This document shows, piece by piece, positions 54,909-63,946 of a DNA stretch of 64,000 nucleotides; position 1 is the stretch's first letter, and each line of letters begins with the position of its first letter. The translations under genes were made by a program, and so were the position numbers. Where the stretch lies: the NCBI GenBank assembly GCA_020832285.1, contig JAFIFB010000007.1:1-64000 (forward strand), in the 5' to 3' direction. Source of the stretch: Balneolaceae bacterium. Lineage in GTDB: Bacteria; Bacteroidota; Rhodothermia; Balneolales; Balneolaceae. The notes beneath the pieces were generated by a model. It did no database searches. It had not been told where the DNA came from and saw nothing but the letters and a program-made list of their open reading frames with translations.

Positions 54909-56606
54909 TCACCAAGTCACCGTTACCCAATGAATAGTGGATGTTCCGCTGTCATTATCTGTATCTGTTACGATTACACGTAGAGCGAAATCGTCATCGT
55001 TGAAAGACTGATGGCCGTAAAATGCGGCATTACCACCAATGTTTTGCCAGTTACCTGTCATATTGTAATCGATTTGCCATTGAAAACTGTAAGGGCGGGC
55101 ACCACCGCCTACCGTGGTGTCGAACTGTACAAATTCGTTAACTTTTATCTGATTTGGCCCCTCAATGAAGGGATGAATGGGAAGGGTGAACCCTACTGCG
55201 GCTGCGGCGTCCAGAACCCCATGTCCATATTCATCGTCAGGCTCTAAAGAATTAAACGGATGATTGGCTGTATTTTGCAGACGGTGTCTGACCTGAGAGT
55301 TACTCCAGGATGGATTTTGGTCAAACAGTAGGGCTGCTGCACCTGAAACATGAGGTGTGGCAAAAGAAGTGCCACACCAACCATCTGTTTCATCCTCGTA
55401 ATTAGTTGTGCCTACCGTGCTCAAAGCCCAAAAAGGTGCGGAAAGAGAAACATGAGAGCCATGGTTGGAAAATACAGTTTGACCGTTTACCACACAAGGG
55501 CTGGTATTTGCAAAATAACCATTATCCCTCACTCCAGACACCCCAATCACTTCATTATATCCTGCAGGGTATAATACAGTGCCACCTGTAATAGCCGGAA
55601 CATTTCCTGCCGCAGCAACCATAACGATCCCAGTGTTCCAAGCCGCAGCAACTGCGTTGGATTCACCAGTATGTGATTGGACACCACCCAAACTCATATT
55701 TATTACGTCAACTCCATTAATAACACCGAAATCAATACCGTCAATAACGTCTTGAACAGAACATATTTGTTGTGCATCACACGCCCCATACGAATAGGCA
55801 TTAACGTCAGCAATGCCCGGAGCGACACCAACAACTCCGATTTCGTTATCCAGTGCCATTAACACTCCGGAGACATGAGTGCCATGATTTGTTGGATCGG
55901 AGCAACCTCCACCGCCAAGTGTTCCACCGCAATTCGAAGTCGGCCGATCCGGCAAGTCTATATGATTATTCATACCACTGTCTATAACCAAAACTTTTAC
56001 TCCATTTCCGGTGGCTTCTGACCAGGCGATAGGCGCACGGACCAGATCATTACCCCAAGGAGTAACTTGCGATAAAGCCGATGTTTCAATCCAGGATGAT
56101 TGCAATTTTCGATTAAGTGGGATTTCTATATAATCGACTTGCGGATGATCGTATAATTCAAACACATAATCAGGATCCATTTGGACCGCGACAGCACCAA
56201 AGGATCGATAGACACTTTCAATCTCTATATTGAGAGAGTCGATCATTTGAAGTGCCGATCTAAAATCCTGCGATGATAATGCTGCACGGATCCCATTGGT
56301 TTCCCTCAAACGCTTACTTTCGGGAGCCTTAATTCCTATCATAGCCCTTCCGTCATTGGCTGCAATAGAGTCTCGTAATATGGTTACATCCGTATCCCAA
56401 GGTCTCTCCTCAGGCACATCCATCTGAAGGCGCGGAATATCCGGGAAATCTTCAATTGTAATTTGACCAAATACTTCGGACGGCACCTGTTGCAAATCAA
56501 CCTTCTCATGCTGACTTCCCAAGAAATCAGAATTGCAACCTGTAACCAGTGCAACACAATAAACAAGTATAATAAAACAAAAAAACGATAGATAGTTTTT
56601 GATCAT
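54909..56606 (-). CDS. S8 (subtilisin-like) serine protease lipoprotein with N-terminal propeptide
   Basis: 565 residues. Lipobox VTGC (Cys24), then a propeptide-like region (about 55-165), then the catalytic domain: VLVIDSG (Asp209), NHGTHVSG (His241), oxyanion Asn335 in AAAGN and GTSFATPHVSG (Ser414). A C-terminal beta-sandwich from about residue 480 (IEGPNQIKVNEFVQFD) follows. It is probably an outer-surface protease. The gene upstream (56763-57260) encodes a protein matching only its propeptide region. Confidence 0.9.
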   Translation of the reverse strand: MIKNYLSFFCFIILVYCVALVTGCNSDFLGSQHEKVDLQQVPSEVFGQITIEDFPDIPRLQMDVPEERPWDTDVTILRDSIAANDGRAMIGIKAPESKRLRETNGIRAALSSQDFRSALQMIDSLNIEIESVYRSFGAVAVQMDPDYVFELYDHPQVDYIEIPLNRKLQSSWIETSALSQVTPWGNDLVRAPIAWSEATGNGVKVLVIDSGMNNHIDLPDRPTSNCGGTLGGGGCSDPTNHGTHVSGVLMALDNEIGVVGVAPGIADVNAYSYGACDAQQICSVQDVIDGIDFGVINGVDVINMSLGGVQSHTGESNAVAAAWNTGIVMVAAAGNVPAITGGTVLYPAGYNEVIGVSGVRDNGYFANTSPCVVNGQTVFSNHGSHVSLSAPFWALSTVGTTNYEDETDGWCGTSFATPHVSGAAALLFDQNPSWSNSQVRHRLQNTANHPFNSLEPDDEYGHGVLDAAAAVGFTLPIHPFIEGPNQIKVNEFVQFDTTVGGGARPYSFQWQIDYNMTGNWQNIGGNAAFYGHQSFNDDDFALRVIVTDTDNDSGTSTIHWVTVTW

Positions 56607-56762: not shown

Positions 56763-57260
56763 TTACTCTTTAGGAAGATTCCAGCCCAAGCCGAACTCTA
56801 AGGGAAAGTCGATATAGTCAACCATTGGGTGATCATACAACTCAAATACTTTATCCCGGTTCATAAGTACCTCAACTGCACCGAATGTGTTGTGAACATC
56901 GATTATTTCGACCCCCCTGCTGTAAAGCATGTGCATGGCAGTCTCGAATTGCCCGGCAGTTAGTGCTTCGCGGTAACCGTGACTTTCCCTAAAGCGCTTA
57001 CTTTCGGAGTCCTTCAGTTCAATGATAGCCTGACCGTCGTCGAAAGCAATGGAATCCCTCAACACCGATGCATTTGTCTCCCACGGTTGCGGATCATTCG
57101 GGGGAGCACCCAAATATAACCTCGGAATATCCTCCAGACCCTGCAAGAGTTCCTCATCGCATCTTCCCGCATAATCTTGATCTTGTTCCGCTAGATAGGC
57201 CTCACAACCTGCCAAAGCCAAAGTAACTATTATAGAAAAAAATAATTGCAAATATCTCAT
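56763..57260 (-). CDS. Stand-alone propeptide-like lipoprotein beside the S8 protease
   Basis: The start at 57260 gives MRYLQLFFSIIVTLALAGC, a clean lipoprotein signal; the frame stays open 17 codons further upstream. The mature protein (to 165 residues) resembles the protease's propeptide: IPRLYLGAPPNDPQPWETN with VLRDSIAFDDGQAII matches IPRLQMDVPEERPWDTD with ILRDSIAANDGRAMI. The end FGAVEVLMNRDKVFELYDHP matches FGAVAVQMDPDYVFELYDHP. It then stops and has no protease domain. It could be an inhibitor or folding helper for the neighbour, or the leftover of a duplication. Confidence 0.7.
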   Translation of the reverse strand: MRYLQLFFSIIVTLALAGCEAYLAEQDQDYAGRCDEELLQGLEDIPRLYLGAPPNDPQPWETNASVLRDSIAFDDGQAIIELKDSESKRFRESHGYREALTAGQFETAMHMLYSRGVEIIDVHNTFGAVEVLMNRDKVFELYDHPMVDYIDFPLEFGLGWNLPKE

Positions 57261-57335
57261 CGCTCTAAAAATCGAGTTTATATTTGTGGGGGATTTACTC
57301 TTAATACACACAACAAAGAGTGAATACCTAATACC

Positions 57336-57460: not shown

Positions 57461-57530
57461 AGCACTAAATAGTTTCGAATTTTGAAAATTAGATTGGTTT
57501 CAGATTTATGAATTCCATAGTTTTATTCCC

Positions 57531-57605
57531 GTGATTAAACTTCACTTTCATATCTCTCATTTTCACGGGCACCATCACGGCAGCCATGGGCATTTTGTGC
57601 ATTAA
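57531..57605 (+). CDS. hisL: Histidine operon leader peptide
   Basis: A 24-codon frame from GTG, reading M-I-K-L-H-F-H-I-S-H-F-H-G-H-H-H-G-S-H-G-H-F-V-H, stop TAA. Ten of 24 residues are His, seven of them in the stretch from residue 5 to 16. It ends 71 bases before hisG. This is the classic layout of a his attenuation leader, where stalling at His codons decides whether transcription continues into the operon. No strong Shine-Dalgarno is seen, and an in-frame stop (57519-57521) limits the upstream start. It is too small to be found by ordinary gene calling. Confidence 0.8.
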   Translation: MIKLHFHISHFHGHHHGSHGHFVH

Positions 57606-57630
57606 CACCTCCCTCACCGCACACTTTTTT
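57596..57630 (+). terminator. Candidate attenuator hairpin after the his leader
   Basis: TGTGC (57596-57600) with GCACA (57619-57623), then C and six T (57625-57630). The stem is short. The first arm overlaps the last leader codons, so a ribosome there would affect it. GTGC could alternatively pair with GCAC at 57569-57572 inside the leader. The assignment is tentative. Confidence 0.45.
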
Positions 57631-57676
57631 GCCACGTTCCAAACCCCTATTTTTATTCTAATTTGATACAATCTCT

Positions 57677-58555
57677 ATGAGAACTCTCGACTCTAATACT
57701 TCATTGCGAATTGCCGTCCAAAAAAGCGGACGGCTTACCGACAAAACCCTGAACCTGCTTGAAGGCATTGGCCTTAAATTCGATGATTACAAGCGCAGTC
57801 TTCTGGTTAAATGCCTGAATTTTGATGTGGAACTGTTGCTTATCCGCGACGATGACATCCCCGAATATGTGGAAGACGGCGTATGTGATCTCGGTTTTGT
57901 AGGAGGCAATACCGTTGCCGAAGATGAAGCTGATGTAACCATTCTTCGCGGACTGAACTATGGTGTTTGCCGCCTTTCGATTGCGGTTCCGAAGAACGAA
58001 AATATCAATAAACCAGAAGACCTTGCCGGTAAAAAAATTGCTACCAGTTACCCGGTTCTGACCCGGAAATTTTTTGAATCGAAAGGTATTGACGTCAATA
58101 TCGTGACCCTTTCCGGCTCTGTAGAGATCGCACCCCGGCTCGAAATTGCCGATGCCATTTCCGACCTTGTCTCCACCGGAGGCACATTGAAAGCAAATGG
58201 GTTGATTGAAATCGATAAAATTTTCGATTCGGAAACGCAGTTGATCCAAACTAACAAGCCGCTTTCCGAAGGCAAACAGCAACTCATTGAAAAAATTCTA
58301 CAGCGGATTGAAGGTCACAAAAAAGCTGCCGAAAGCCGTTATATTATGATGAATGCTCCGCAGGAATCTGTACCGGAAATCAAAAAAATCATTCCATCTC
58401 TTAAAAGCCCGACCGTAATGCCCCTGGCCGATAACGGAATGGTTGCGATTCACACCGTCATTCCATTGTCCACTTTCTGGGATGTGATGGAAAACCTGAA
58501 AGAAGCCGGTGCCACCGGAATTGTAATGCTGCCAATTGAAAGTATGATTGTTTAA
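57677..58555 (+). CDS. hisG: ATP phosphoribosyltransferase, long form
   Basis: 292 residues, matching the long HisG with a C-terminal regulatory domain that needs no HisZ. It makes the first step of histidine synthesis from ATP and PRPP. The N-terminal RIAVQKSGRLTDKTLNLLE, DLGFVGGNTV and the PRPP-binding segment ISDLVSTGGTLKANGL are clear, as is the C-terminal HTVIPLSTFWDVMENLKEAGA typical of the regulatory part. It is the first structural gene after the leader. Confidence 0.96.
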   Translation: MRTLDSNTSLRIAVQKSGRLTDKTLNLLEGIGLKFDDYKRSLLVKCLNFDVELLLIRDDDIPEYVEDGVCDLGFVGGNTVAEDEADVTILRGLNYGVCRLSIAVPKNENINKPEDLAGKKIATSYPVLTRKFFESKGIDVNIVTLSGSVEIAPRLEIADAISDLVSTGGTLKANGLIEIDKIFDSETQLIQTNKPLSEGKQQLIEKILQRIEGHKKAAESRYIMMNAPQESVPEIKKIIPSLKSPTVMPLADNGMVAIHTVIPLSTFWDVMENLKEAGATGIVMLPIESMIV

Positions 58556-58626: not shown

Positions 58627-58682
58627 ATTCAATACTCAATACTCACTACTCGATACTCGATACTCGATACTCGATACTCAAA
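58627..58682. repeat. Heptanucleotide tandem array before hisD
   Basis: Units of 7 in register: ATTCAAT, ACTCAAT, ACTCACT, four perfect ACTCGAT copies (58648-58675), then ACTCAAA. About 40 bases upstream (58573-58590) GTGAGTATTGAGTATCGAG is a partial complement, so the array could pair with it in the mRNA. It ends two bases before the hisD start. Confidence 0.8.
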
Positions 58683-58684
58683 AT

Positions 58685-59998
58685 ATGAAAACATACACCT
58701 ACAAATCGCTTACTGAAACTGACATTCAAAATCTTTGCAAGCGGCCGAAAATGGATTTTAAGTCGGTCTTCGGGCAGGTACAGCCTATTCTGGATGATGT
58801 TGAAGCCAACGGTGATAAAGCAGTTCGCAACTGGACAAAAAAGTTCGATGGCGTGGCTCCTGATCCGCTTGTAATTGATCCCTCTGAACTGAGAGTAAAT
58901 CTGGCACCTGATGTAAAAGAGGCAATTGACAGAGCAATAAACAATATTTTCCGTTTTCATCGTGAACAGTTAACTAATTCGATTGAAGTTGAAACGCAAC
59001 AGGGAGTCGTCTGCAGGCGTGTTGGAAGGCCGATTGAAAGGGTAGGCCTCTACATTCCCGGCGGAACAGCCCCCCTCCCATCTACTGCGATGATGCTCGG
59101 CATTCCAGCCCTTATTGCTGGATGCAAAACCGTTGTGCTGGCCAGCCCGCCCGATAAAGAGGGTAATCTTCCTGAATCGGTGATCTACGTTGCACAGAAA
59201 ATCGGTATAAAAAATGTGTTAAAGGCCGGTGGTGCTCAGGCAATTGCTGCAATGGCATTTGGTACAGAGTCGGTTCCAAAAGTAGATAAACTTTTCGGTC
59301 CCGGAAATCAGTATGTAACGGCTGCCAAAATGATGCTGCAAAACAGCGATGCGATGGTTTCAATCGACATGCCTGCCGGCCCATCGGAAGTACTGGTGAT
59401 TGCCGATGAAACTGCCGATGCCGAATTTGTGGCTTCAGATCTCCTCTCCCAGGCCGAACACGGGAGCGACAGCCAGGCTATTCTTGTGGCTACAAAAAGT
59501 TCAGATGTGGAATCTGTTAAAACCAAATTAAAGCAACAACTTAATTCACTTCCTCGAAAAGAGTTTGCAGCCAAAGCCCTGGGAAAAAGTTACATTTTGA
59601 TAACAGAAAACAGCGATCAGGCAATTGAATTTTCAAATCTTTATGCGCCGGAACATCTCATAATCAACACCAAAGATGCGGATGAACTGGCTGAAAAAGT
59701 GATGAATGCAGGGTCCGTTTTTATCGGGCCGTGGACACCTGAAAGCATGGGCGACTATGCCTCAGGAACTAATCATACCCTGCCAACATACGGCTATGCA
59801 CGGATGTACAGTGGTGTGTCTCTCAACAGTTTTCAGAAATTTATCACCATGCAAAAAATCTCCGAAACCGGCCTTCAAAATCTCGGTCCCACTGTGGAAA
59901 TCCTTGCGAAACTGGAAGGTCTGGATGCACACCGGAATGCCGTTAGCTTGCGATTGAAAAAACTGGGTGATGGTATAGATGTGAAAAGTGAAAAGTGA
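58685..59998 (+). CDS. hisD: Histidinol dehydrogenase
   Basis: 437 residues from the ATG at 58685. An upstream in-frame start would add 35 residues that are simply a translation of the heptamer array, so the later start is preferred. It performs the last two steps of histidine synthesis. [20 protein letters not shown], the NAD/zinc-site [30 protein letters not shown] and YAPEHL are present. The C-terminus runs into a second heptamer array, which adds the VKSEK end. Confidence 0.97.
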
Positions 59999-60022
59999 AA
60001 AGTGAAAAGTGAAAAATGAAAA
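59981..60022. repeat. Heptanucleotide tandem array at the end of hisD
   Basis: Five perfect GTGAAAA units (59981-60015) followed by ATGAAAA (60016-60022). The first two and a half lie inside hisD and include its stop codon; the rest are intergenic. Confidence 0.85.
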
Positions 60023-60128
60023 AAGGAGAAGGTTTTTCTTAACAAAAGCGTAAGTGCCTAATCCCATCTACAAATTTTCCGGAGTGATTTTTCAACCCAT
60101 AAACAACCTATAAATTATAAAACCTACA

Positions 60129-61184
60129 ATGTCTGACGTAAATATCGAATCTCTGGTTCGTAAAAATATCCGAAACCTGGCACCCTACCGCAGTGCCAGG
60201 GATGACTTTGAAAAGGGATTGCTGCTGGATGCCAATGAAAACAGCCTCGGTTCGCCGGTGCGGAACACACTTGACCTGCATCGCTATCCCACTCCCACAC
60301 ACGACAATCTCCGAAAAAGAATTGCAGTTTGGCGTCAGGTAGATTACGAAAACGTGATTCTGGGTGTTGGCAGCGATGAACCCATCGACCTGCTTATGCG
60401 GATTTTTTGTGAACCCGGAAAAGATTCTATTATCACCACACCGCCTACCTACGGCATGTATAAGGTGGCAGCAGGTGTGAATGATGTAAACATCAAAGAG
60501 GTGCTTCTTACGGAAAATTTTCAGCTTCGACCAGATGAAATCCTCAAAGCGGCTGACAAACAGACCAAACTTTTGCTGCTTTGCTCGCCCAACAATCCGA
60601 CCGCCAATGACCTGAAACGAACTGACATACTGAAGCTGGTGGCCCGATTCCCAGGCATTGTAGTTGTGGATGAGGCCTACATTGATTTCAGCGGACAGGA
60701 ATCGATGGCACCAATGGTTCAGCAGTACCCGAACCTTGTAGTACTTCAAACCTTTTCAAAATCGTTCGGACTGGCCGGAATCCGGTTGGGAATTGCCTTC
60801 TCTAATCCGCAGATAATTCATTACATGCGCAATGTTAAGGCACCATATAACATCAGCAAACTCACTGCAGATCTTGCTCTGAAAGCGTTTGATAATATGG
60901 ACCTTGTAAAATTTAACATAGAAAAAATCCTGGAAGAGCGCGAATATGTGGCCGGACAGCTCAGCCAGGCACCGGGTGTTGAAAAGGTGTACCCATCGGA
61001 TGCCAATTTTCTCCTATTCAAAATTCAAAATGCGAAAGAGATCTGGCGACAACTGGCTGAAAAAGAAATCATTATTCGCTACCGGGGCCACGAGCCGCTA
61101 TGTGAAAATTGCCTGCGCGTAACCATTGGTATGCCTGATGAAAATGTGCGCTTTCTAAAAACGCTAAAAGAAATTATCTCATGA
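60129..61184 (+). CDS. hisC: Histidinol-phosphate aminotransferase
   Basis: 351 residues, a fold-type I PLP enzyme. It converts imidazole-acetol phosphate to histidinol phosphate. DANENSLGSPV, LCSPNNPTAND and VDEAYIDF are present, with the PLP Lys in FSKSFGLAGIRLG and R in CLRVTIGMP. Its stop overlaps the hisB start by four bases (ATGA), so the two are coupled. Confidence 0.95.
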   Translation: MSDVNIESLVRKNIRNLAPYRSARDDFEKGLLLDANENSLGSPVRNTLDLHRYPTPTHDNLRKRIAVWRQVDYENVILGVGSDEPIDLLMRIFCEPGKDSIITTPPTYGMYKVAAGVNDVNIKEVLLTENFQLRPDEILKAADKQTKLLLLCSPNNPTANDLKRTDILKLVARFPGIVVVDEAYIDFSGQESMAPMVQQYPNLVVLQTFSKSFGLAGIRLGIAFSNPQIIHYMRNVKAPYNISKLTADLALKAFDNMDLVKFNIEKILEEREYVAGQLSQAPGVEKVYPSDANFLLFKIQNAKEIWRQLAEKEIIIRYRGHEPLCENCLRVTIGMPDENVRFLKTLKEIIS

Positions 61185-62068
61185 ATATCTGGATCGATAT
61201 CAGTGCTCTTGAAACCGGGAAAAAAAAGTTACTGCCACAGGGTACAATATTCGGGCTTACCTACCTGATACAACACAACTACTCTGTCGCATTTGATGAC
61301 TCTCTACTCTCTACTGAACAGCAGCAGCTTCTGAAAAATGAAGAAATTCTAACCGGAACTTTTACCCAAGGCCAGGCGGATGCCATTCTACAAAAAAATG
61401 AAACGTATCAACTGATTTCGGGACAGGATATCATCGCCAATGGCGTGAATTGGATTGAACTTGTACAACACCTTCTCTTTCCTGTTCGAAAATCCACCAT
61501 CAAACGAGATACCAAAGAGACTAATATTTCGGTTTCCATAAATCTGGACGGAACTGGAAAAAGCCGCATAAAAACAGGGCTTCATTTCTTTGACCACATG
61601 CTCGACCAAATTGCACGGCATGGACTTATTGACATCGAACTAACTTGCAATGGTGATCTCGATGTAGATGAACATCACACCATTGAAGACACCGCCATCG
61701 CTCTGGGACAGGCAATCCGGCAGGCTATTTCAGACAACAAAGCCGGTATACAACGCTACGGTTTCGTACTGCCAATGGATGAAGCGCAGGCAATTGTGGC
61801 AATTGATCTATCCGATCGCCCCTATCTGCGTTGGGAAGTTGAATTGAAACGGGAGTATGTGGGTGACGTCCCAACCGAAATGCTGGAACACTTTTTTTAT
61901 ACACTTGCAATGAACGTAAAAGCTACTCTGCATGTTAAGGCTGACGGAAAAAATGAACATCACATTATCGAAGCGGTGTTTAAAGGCTTTGCAAAAGCGT
62001 TACGCTTTTCTGTAAGCCGAAATGAAAGAATTAAGGGCATTCTACCCTCAACTAAAGGAACGATCTAA
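61181..62068 (+). CDS. hisB: Imidazoleglycerol-phosphate dehydratase with an altered N-terminal domain
   Basis: 295 residues. From about residue 105 it is a complete IGPD: INLDGTGKSRIKTGLHFFDH, the metal-binding DEHHTIEDTAIALG and NEHHIIEAVFKGFAKAL. The first 100 residues resemble a shortened HAD phosphatase domain of the two-function HisB (IWIDISALETG where IDRDGTLI is expected, then LLPQGTIFGLTYLIQHNYSVAF), but the second nucleophile-loop Asp and later HAD motifs are absent. It therefore probably cannot dephosphorylate histidinol phosphate, and another HisN would be needed. Confidence 0.85.
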   Translation: MNIWIDISALETGKKKLLPQGTIFGLTYLIQHNYSVAFDDSLLSTEQQQLLKNEEILTGTFTQGQADAILQKNETYQLISGQDIIANGVNWIELVQHLLFPVRKSTIKRDTKETNISVSINLDGTGKSRIKTGLHFFDHMLDQIARHGLIDIELTCNGDLDVDEHHTIEDTAIALGQAIRQAISDNKAGIQRYGFVLPMDEAQAIVAIDLSDRPYLRWEVELKREYVGDVPTEMLEHFFYTLAMNVKATLHVKADGKNEHHIIEAVFKGFAKALRFSVSRNERIKGILPSTKGTI

Positions 62069-62174
62069 TCTGAAGTGAAAGGGCCATTGAAAAAACCGAA
62101 ATACTCAGGAACTAATTTAATCAATAAAATTGTCGGTCTTATTCAATCTCTCTTCTCACTATCGAAAAACAACC

Positions 62175-62765
62175 ATGATAGGCATTATTAAATATCAGGC
62201 AGGAAATCTGGCATCCGTATCAAATGCACTGGAACGACTTGGTGCGAAATATTTTATTTCTGATGATCCGGTCAAACTAGAAAAAGCAGATGCTATAATT
62301 TTTCCGGGAGTGGGACATGCTGCAGCTGCGATGGATGACCTCCGCTCGAAAGACCTGGACGTCTGGCTGAAAGAAACCAAAAAACCGGTATTGGGAATTT
62401 GCCTTGGAATGCAATTGCTTTACGAATCATCTGAAGAGGGCAACTCTGAGACCCTTGGAATTATTCCTGGTCGGTTAAAAAAGTTTGATTCTTCATTAGC
62501 TAAAGTCCCGCACATGGGATGGAATAAATTTAAGCCGGAAAAAGTACATCCAATCATTAACGGAATTGGCAGTGAACAATATCTATATTACGTGCACGGT
62601 TATTATGCGCCAAAAAATAATTATACATTAGCTACATGCCACTACATTCAGGATTTTGCTGCGATTGTGGCGAAAGATAATTTTATCGGTGTTCAGTTTC
62701 ACCCCGAAAAATCCGGCCAGGTTGGATCGCTTCTCTTGCAGAATTTTCTGCATATGGTAAAATAA
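62175..62765 (+). CDS. hisH: Imidazole glycerol phosphate synthase, glutaminase subunit
   Basis: 196 residues from the ATG at 62175, giving the usual MIGIIKYQAGN start; the open frame extends 15 codons upstream without family similarity. Class I glutaminase with Cys76 in GICLGMQ and the His/Glu pair in VQFHPEKSG. It supplies ammonia to HisF for making imidazole glycerol phosphate. HisF itself is not in the window. Confidence 0.95.
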   Translation: MIGIIKYQAGNLASVSNALERLGAKYFISDDPVKLEKADAIIFPGVGHAAAAMDDLRSKDLDVWLKETKKPVLGICLGMQLLYESSEEGNSETLGIIPGRLKKFDSSLAKVPHMGWNKFKPEKVHPIINGIGSEQYLYYVHGYYAPKNNYTLATCHYIQDFAAIVAKDNFIGVQFHPEKSGQVGSLLLQNFLHMVK

Positions 62766-63223
62766 CTTTATTCCCTTTAAAGCACACTGGTACCGGCAAG
62801 GCTACTCACAATACTCACCAGTTATCATAACCGAAACGAATTGCTGTTCATTTTATGACTGTTTGGATGGGCAGGTAATCCGTTTAACTATCTCAAGTTG
62901 AGTGTTTTCTGCCGTACTCAAATACCATCAGATATTTTTCTTTCACTTCTTACGAAAGTTAACTGAGCTCAATGAGCTTTATCCAGTCATCAAAACTATC
63001 CTTGTACTCTATTACAATATCAAAATCCGCAGATTTCCCATACCCTCCAGATCTGCAGGCACGTTTTGAGTATCCGCTATTCTTCCTTCATATCTTACCA
63101 TTTTTCCAATGATTTTCACCAATAAACCAAATACCTTTAACGTAAAAATTACAAGACCGGAATAAATACAAAATTATTATAAATTCTGGACCCAATAAAT
63201 AAGCTCAATAGAAAAATTTTATC
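62766..63223. other. Long gene-free gap inside the his operon
   Basis: 458 bases between hisH and hisA. No convincing gene. On the minus strand a short frame ends at 62959 with GGYGKSADFDIVIEYKD then FDDWIKLIELS, about 42 codons after an in-frame stop; it looks protein-like and may be the remnant of a displaced gene. Such a long break is unusual in a his operon that is otherwise tight, so a lost gene or an inserted piece is possible. Confidence 0.35.
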
Positions 63224-63946
63224 ATGAACATCATTCCTGCCATTGATCTGCTGGACGGCCAGGTTGTTCGCCTGAAAAAAGGCGATTATGCTAAAAAAAC
63301 TGTATATAACCACAATCCGCTTGATGAAGCACACAAATTTGAAACGGCCGGATTTTCACACATCCACATCGTTGACCTTAACGGAGCCAAAAGCGGACAA
63401 TTTGAAAATCTTCCGATTATCCGAAATATCATCAATGAATCGGGCCTGTCAGTACAAACCGGAGGCGGTGTCCGGTCACTTAAGGACATTGAACTGCTGC
63501 TTAATGCCGGATTGAACGGTGTTATCTGTTCCTCTATGGCGGTAAAGAAACCGGATGAATGGATGGAGGCCATAAAAAACTATCCCCATGAAATGATTTT
63601 GGGTCTGGACCTCAAAGATGGAAAAATGGCCTATGGCGGATGGATGGAGACTTCCGATGAACCGATTGAGCGTTTCCTCAACCCGATGATTGAAGCGGGT
63701 CTGCAAACTGTTCTCAGCACCGATATTTCGCGTGACGGGATGCTGAGCGGGCCAAATGTTGAGATGTACAGCGATCTGCAGAAACGATTCCCGCAAGTGA
63801 ATTGGATTGCTTCGGGTGGTGTTTCCAGCCTTGAAGACCTGGTAACGTTACAAAGCCGCGGGCTGTACGGTGTAGTAGTTGGCAAGGCGTACTACGAGGG
63901 TCACATCCACCTTGAAGAGATGCAGCAGTTAAGCGGTTCTGTTTAA
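63224..63946 (+). CDS. hisA: ProFAR isomerase
   Basis: 240 residues of TIM-barrel type. IPAIDLLDGQVVRLKKGDY has the catalytic Asp near the start; QTGGGVRSLKDIE, LSTDISRDGMLSGPN with the second catalytic Asp, and ASGGVSSLEDL are present. It isomerises ProFAR to PRFAR before HisF/HisH. It is the last complete gene; about 50 bases follow before the window ends. Confidence 0.96.
   Translation: MNIIPAIDLLDGQVVRLKKGDYAKKTVYNHNPLDEAHKFETAGFSHIHIVDLNGAKSGQFENLPIIRNIINESGLSVQTGGGVRSLKDIELLLNAGLNGVICSSMAVKKPDEWMEAIKNYPHEMILGLDLKDGKMAYGGWMETSDEPIERFLNPMIEAGLQTVLSTDISRDGMLSGPNVEMYSDLQKRFPQVNWIASGGVSSLEDLVTLQSRGLYGVVVGKAYYEGHIHLEEMQQLSGSV

Follow-up and report, generated by a model that had tools for sequence, protein, structure and literature searches.

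A conserved histidine-rich leader upstream of hisG in Balneolaceae and a possible his attenuator that works without an intrinsic terminator

The region in front of hisG in this Balneolaceae bacterium raises the question of whether a short histidine-rich frame controls the his operon by attenuation and, if it does, what takes the decision between stopping and continuing transcription. The window, meaning the whole stretch of 64,000 nucleotides (64 kb) that was analysed, belongs to a genome placed by hisG matches in the Balneolaceae near Rhodohalobacter, among salt-loving bacteria. The leader and the operon occupy these positions:

57531-57605, forward strand: His leader peptide ORF, GTG start, 24 codons with 10 His, tiny and unannotated
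57677-58555, forward strand: hisG, the first gene of the his operon (PF01634, PF08029)
58685-63946, forward strand: hisD (ATG at 58685), hisC, hisB, hisH and hisA, the remaining his operon in the window (Pfam matches)

A preliminary description had reported an uncalled frame of 24 codons, ten of them for His, that stops 71 nt short of hisG and is followed by a short hairpin and six T, and had read this as the layout of ribosome-mediated attenuation. All of these elements are present in the sequence. The frame translates as VIKLHFHISHFHGHHHGSHGHFVH, its TAA stop occupies 57603-57605, and 71 nt separate it from the hisG ATG at 57677, so that a short ORF rich in codons for the product of the operon lies upstream of the first gene, as is expected of an attenuator. 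The His-rich leader ORF before hisG is not a chance event. It is the only ORF in the 64 kb with at most 45 codons, at least seven His and at least 30% His, and a single such ORF, with 7 His, arose across 100 dinucleotide-shuffled windows. An Rfam search of the window returned no family match, and this includes His_leader (presumably RF00514) above its gathering score.

Other features of the neighbourhood were also noted. A TCAATAC heptamer is repeated in tandem 7.6 times at 58629-58681, between hisG and hisD, and a GTGAAAA heptamer six times at 59981-60022, at the end of hisD. On the reverse strand, a 182-aa ORF (56763-57311) without a Pfam match adjoins the gene for a subtilase-like protein (54909-56606, also reverse) and shares 42% identity with the N-terminal part of that protein ahead of its protease domain, which points to a stand-alone, prodomain-like copy.

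The same leader was found in related genomes, where the preliminary description had suggested looking for it. Regions upstream of hisG were gathered from the genome contigs and from relatives and scanned for His-rich leaders, and 83 distinct loci were found to carry one directly before hisG, mostly in Balneolaceae with a few in other Balneolales. The leaders are about 16-36 codons long and as a rule lie 55-125 nt upstream of hisG. The codons are kept and not merely the DNA, as His richness and frame persist while the sequence drifts (HHHGSHGHFVH, HHAHHGHHHVH and HLHHGGSHRQ are examples) and CAT and CAC replace each other among relatives. The leader ORF is very probably translated. In Balneolales families other than Balneolaceae the leader is often absent, and in the rest of the Bacteroidota about half of 60 sampled hisG loci also have a His-rich leader. 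The remark that such leaders are seldom documented in this group is fair for the literature that was found, where there are clues in Flavobacterium psychrophilum, but in the sequences of the phylum they are common. Some Balneolaceae genomes (L166, L167, L165; G031, G112, G091) carry a divergent hisG of 40-45% identity, possibly acquired, and there is no convincing His leader in front of those in L166, L167 and L165. In a Fodinibius-like clade (L028, L055, L119-L136) the leader stop is TAG instead of TAA, and the sequence at this stop, ATAGCAT, is invariant and able to pair with GCTATG or GTTATG in the region of the hisG start.

The position of the promoter relative to the start codon, which the preliminary description missed, suggests how translation of the leader might begin:

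57494-57525, forward strand: predicted sigma-A promoter of the leader, with TTGG at 57494-57497 and the -7 box TAGTTTTA at 57518-57525
57530-57531, forward strand: predicted transcription start, at the GTG or one base before it, from promoter spacing

Leader start codons were picked blind to the promoter box and were GTG at 53 and ATG at 30 of the 83 loci. In 45 of the 83 the motif TAnnTTT ends exactly 4 or 5 nt upstream of that codon, with a background of 0.29 per position, and the looser TAnnTT lies at 4-5 nt in 60; TTG occurs 24 nt upstream of the TA of the -7 box in 32 of 75 loci. Nearly all relatives show a gap of 4 nt, which would make the mRNA exactly leaderless, or of 5 nt; in one small clade box and start stand 9-10 nt apart. 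In F. psychrophilum the TAnnTTTG box lies at -12 to -5 (PMC9723704), and a box at that distance places +1 on the start codon of the leader or on the base just ahead of it (57530 for the box of the window), although this spacing is borrowed from a flavobacterium and not from a member of the Balneolota. From these positions it is likely that the leader mRNA is leaderless, with the RNA starting at the first base of the leader. Elsewhere in the Bacteroidota the sampled His-leader loci mostly have a wider gap, and usually a genuine 5' UTR. Leaderless mRNAs make up 5.5% in F. psychrophilum (PMC9723704), and 5' UTRs shorter than 10 nt about 3.7% in Bacteroides thetaiotaomicron (PMC7366714); leaderless initiation, mainly at GTG, would be unusual for the superphylum.

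Two small hairpins, here called H1 and H2, are predicted to form, one within the His codons and the other close to the leader stop, and both are conserved in the sequence comparisons:

57568-57585, forward strand: hairpin H1 in the His codons (GGC.CC/GG..GCC), weak here and stronger in relatives
57588-57633, forward strand: hairpin H2 around the leader stop codon (GGGCA...TGTGC/GCACA...TGCC)

The complete leader of the window folds no better than its shuffles (z -0.71). Over the 83 loci, folding of the ORF is stronger than in synonymous-codon shuffles (p 5e-5), and pairing between ORF and spacer also exceeds such shuffles (mean z -0.88, p 3e-12). H2 pairs the last codons (GTG CAT TAA) with GCAC past the stop, and in 13 of 64 loci (0.6 expected) an exact complement of the 5-mer at GTGCA follows the stop. 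The Fodinibius-like clade, the only one that aligned well, shows covariation in H1 and in a second hairpin (score 0.162 versus 0.078 in shuffles, 0/500). In the clade of the window the register of H1 shifts, with compensations seen by eye (CTGCC/GGCAG, CTTCC/GGAAG, GGCCACC/GGTAGCC). Consensus folding of unguided alignments found no structure in the two larger clades, because the hairpins shift register. When a ribosome stalled 10-14 codons before the stop was modelled, H1 was gone and H2 was maximal, and H2 was lost only once the ribosome stood some six codons or less from the stop. When the 5' part was masked, as by a ribosome, the folds kept or strengthened H2 and showed no competing helix. 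In these models the behaviour of H2 is the opposite of that of a terminator forming at the end of translation, unless the ribosome departs quickly.

The hairpin and T run of the window were then considered as a terminator:

57625-57630, forward strand: six-T run, pointed out in the preliminary description and not conserved

The stem pairs TGTGC (57596-57600) with GCACA (57619-57623) across a loop of 18 nt, and in the minimum free energy fold the T run is buried in a larger stem that joins GGGCA (57588-57592) to TGCC (57630-57633). The run is particular to the window species; the closest relative, with a 96% identical HisG, has CTTTACTG instead. With a score that combines hairpin energy and U-tail, the 83 Balneolales loci did not differ from shuffles in two scorings (p 0.16 and p 0.95), and an intrinsic terminator was rejected as a conserved feature on these grounds. 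Only 1 of the 83 scored below -14. Of 31 His leaders from other Bacteroidota, 17 fell below -14 by the same score and count as strong terminators, as did all 12 trp leaders of Balneolales genomes that were checked, including the genome of the window (-21 to -28), whereas the best his leader from those 12 genomes reached -14.4. Neither the organism nor the scoring therefore explains the absence at his. This comparison argues that an intrinsic terminator quite probably does not decide the outcome at the his leader. Of the layout first proposed, the conserved and very probably translated His leader stands, but the hairpin with six T does not stand as a conserved terminator; the suspicion, raised from the stem of only five pairs, that the mechanism may differ was borne out.

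Further leaders were looked for gene by gene. The trpE leader in the genome of the window (L242, contig C107) is MKSIMIHTNWWWPGRTYQAVESL, with the terminator AACCCACTGCAG..CTGGAGTGGGTT-TTTTTA. A trpE leader peptide with three Trp codons is present in 12 of 12 Balneolales genomes checked (L233-L244), with a -7 box 4-7 nt before the ATG and a classical terminator behind. In the genus of the window the trp leader contains GCAGTGG, to which the 5' arm of the terminator, CCCACTGC, is complementary. Upstream of ilvB (L253-L257; contig C8 in the genome of the window), an Ile/Leu-rich frame that ends in SILISGILNLILIIS or similar stops about 80 nt before the gene and is followed by the hairpin CCAGAGGTTA..TGACCTCTGG with no U-tract, which is possibly a second terminator-free leader.

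The spacer between the leader and hisG is of unusual composition:

57606-57676, forward strand: C-rich, G-poor spacer (35% C, 5.6% G), a candidate Rho loading region

Across the Balneolales loci the spacer averages 26% C and 7.6% G. The difference, C-G, is 0.186, compared with 0.009 in His-leader loci of other Bacteroidota (p 3e-15) and about 0.04 on average ahead of other genes in the window. Within the same genomes it is about -0.03 at trp leaders versus 0.12-0.30 at his leaders. A rho gene is present in the genome (profile match over the cut-off). Both features that were looked for as signs of a Rho-dependent attenuator, a C-rich and G-poor stretch ahead of hisG and Rho itself, are in place. 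A further Rho-family match, below the cut-off at 420 bits, lies on contig C42 (20945-22027). The composition of the spacer suggests Rho. It may also be that the C-rich spacer merely keeps the hisG start unstructured in a host presumed to lack Shine-Dalgarno initiation. The mean unpaired probability of the hisG start is 0.59, versus 0.62 for the whole RNA, so that the start is neither hidden nor exceptionally open, and these values do not support its sequestration.

Taken together, the favoured reading is a leaderless, intrinsic-terminator-free, ribosome-mediated attenuation of his that is probably Rho-dependent, to which we give a probability of about 0.45 as a whole. Its parts differ in strength. 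The leader in all likelihood acts as the sensor, in that scarce His-tRNA would slow the ribosomes on it and raise expression of the his operon. Ribosomes would load at the 5' end of the leaderless mRNA and translate the 24-codon His-rich peptide. When histidine is plentiful they would clear the leader fast and leave C-rich, G-poor RNA bare before hisG, where Rho would load and stop RNA polymerase. When histidine is scarce, ribosomes held along the leader would cover much of this RNA, H1 would be melted and H2 would close over the start of the spacer, and polymerase would read through. Rho as the decision step, taken alone, has somewhat less than an even chance but is the most likely candidate, and it is a more tentative proposal still that in Balneolales the ribosomes of a leaderless leader compete directly with Rho on C-rich RNA in place of an intrinsic terminator. 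Least certain in this scheme is what H1 and H2 would do. In the models H2 is most formed when a ribosome stalls upstream, which is the reverse of a classical terminator and counts against the model, and the six T of the window species could still be argued to be a weak terminator.

Under classical attenuation, H2 and the T run would terminate transcription when histidine is plentiful. H2 and the six T both exist in the window, a few relatives carry GTGCATTAATTGCAC-CTTTTTT, and classical systems are present at trp in the same genomes. However, terminator scores over the 83 loci match shuffles, the T run is not conserved, no conserved antiterminator was seen in the folds, and the finishing ribosome would oppose termination, since H2 would be melted while it stands on the stop codon. 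We consider this reading unlikely, and the locus was not placed in the classical intrinsic-terminator class because a hairpin with a U-tract, a defining feature of that class, was looked for and not found as a conserved feature.

A stalled ribosome might instead alter RNA structure or coupling in a way that raises translation of hisG without any termination of transcription. Cys-rich regulatory ORFs in mycobacteria, reportedly leaderless, speak for this, and in the Fodinibius-like clade the pairing of ATAGCAT with GCTATG, found by eye, would link the leader stop to the hisG start. That pairing is broken in 2 of 12 sequences, though, the spacer varies over 54-127 nt, and the hisG start is not sequestered, which leaves translational attenuation doubtful, if slightly less so than the classical form. 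It is very improbable that the leader is a small His-rich protein without a regulatory role, for example in metal binding, that stands before hisG by chance. His-rich peptides are able to bind metals, but the frame directly precedes hisG in 83 loci with its His richness kept through drift, in other classes such a leader is found with a terminator following it, and the same genomes have a WWW leader in front of trpE.

Among known systems, the enterobacterial hisL is similar in that a His-codon-rich leader ORF precedes hisG in the same operon and a hairpin takes in His codons. The Balneolales leader differs in having no Rfam match, a GTG start that is predicted to be leaderless, no conserved intrinsic terminator, and His codons spread across the whole ORF up to the stop. 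The Cys-rich regulatory leader ORFs of mycobacteria are reportedly leaderless. In these cys leaders the Cys codons lie close to the stop, polyY motifs are present and no terminator is obvious (Seliverstov 2005, PMC1262725). They resemble the leader described here in a leaderless start, reported there and predicted here, in control codons that run to the stop, in the missing terminator and in a pyrimidine-rich spacer that was proposed there as a Rho site. They differ in amino acid (cysteine, not histidine) and in phylum, there is no homology, and their polyY motifs are not conserved while the C-rich, G-poor spacer of Balneolales is. LeuL1 and MetL of Streptomyces lividans (PMC8079986) likewise combine a leaderless transcript and control codons with the lack of a typical Rho-independent terminator; these are actinobacterial leaders for other amino acids, and the LEU element of actinobacteria, which is related to them, forms a pseudoknot. 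The mycobacterial cys leaders and these terminator-lacking Streptomyces leaders are the nearest parallels. Closer in phylum and gene, F. psychrophilum has clues of leader-peptide attenuation, a mechanism proposed there for amino-acid operons, and a conserved 5' element upstream of hisG (PMC9723704), but in the sampled Bacteroidota outside Balneolales a genuine 5' UTR is usual before the leader and a strong intrinsic terminator is frequent after it. The passages located in a survey of his genes in the superphylum (PMC8305728) make no mention of leaders, and the literature searched held no paper on such an arrangement and no leader-peptide attenuator described for Balneolota.

If the favoured reading is true, one regulatory logic would be served by two decision machines in each genome, Rho at his and an intrinsic terminator at trp. 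Within one genome the his and trp leaders can be set side by side as natural counterparts, similar in how they sense but different in how termination comes about, and this comparison would make the way in which terminator-less attenuators reach their decision directly testable.
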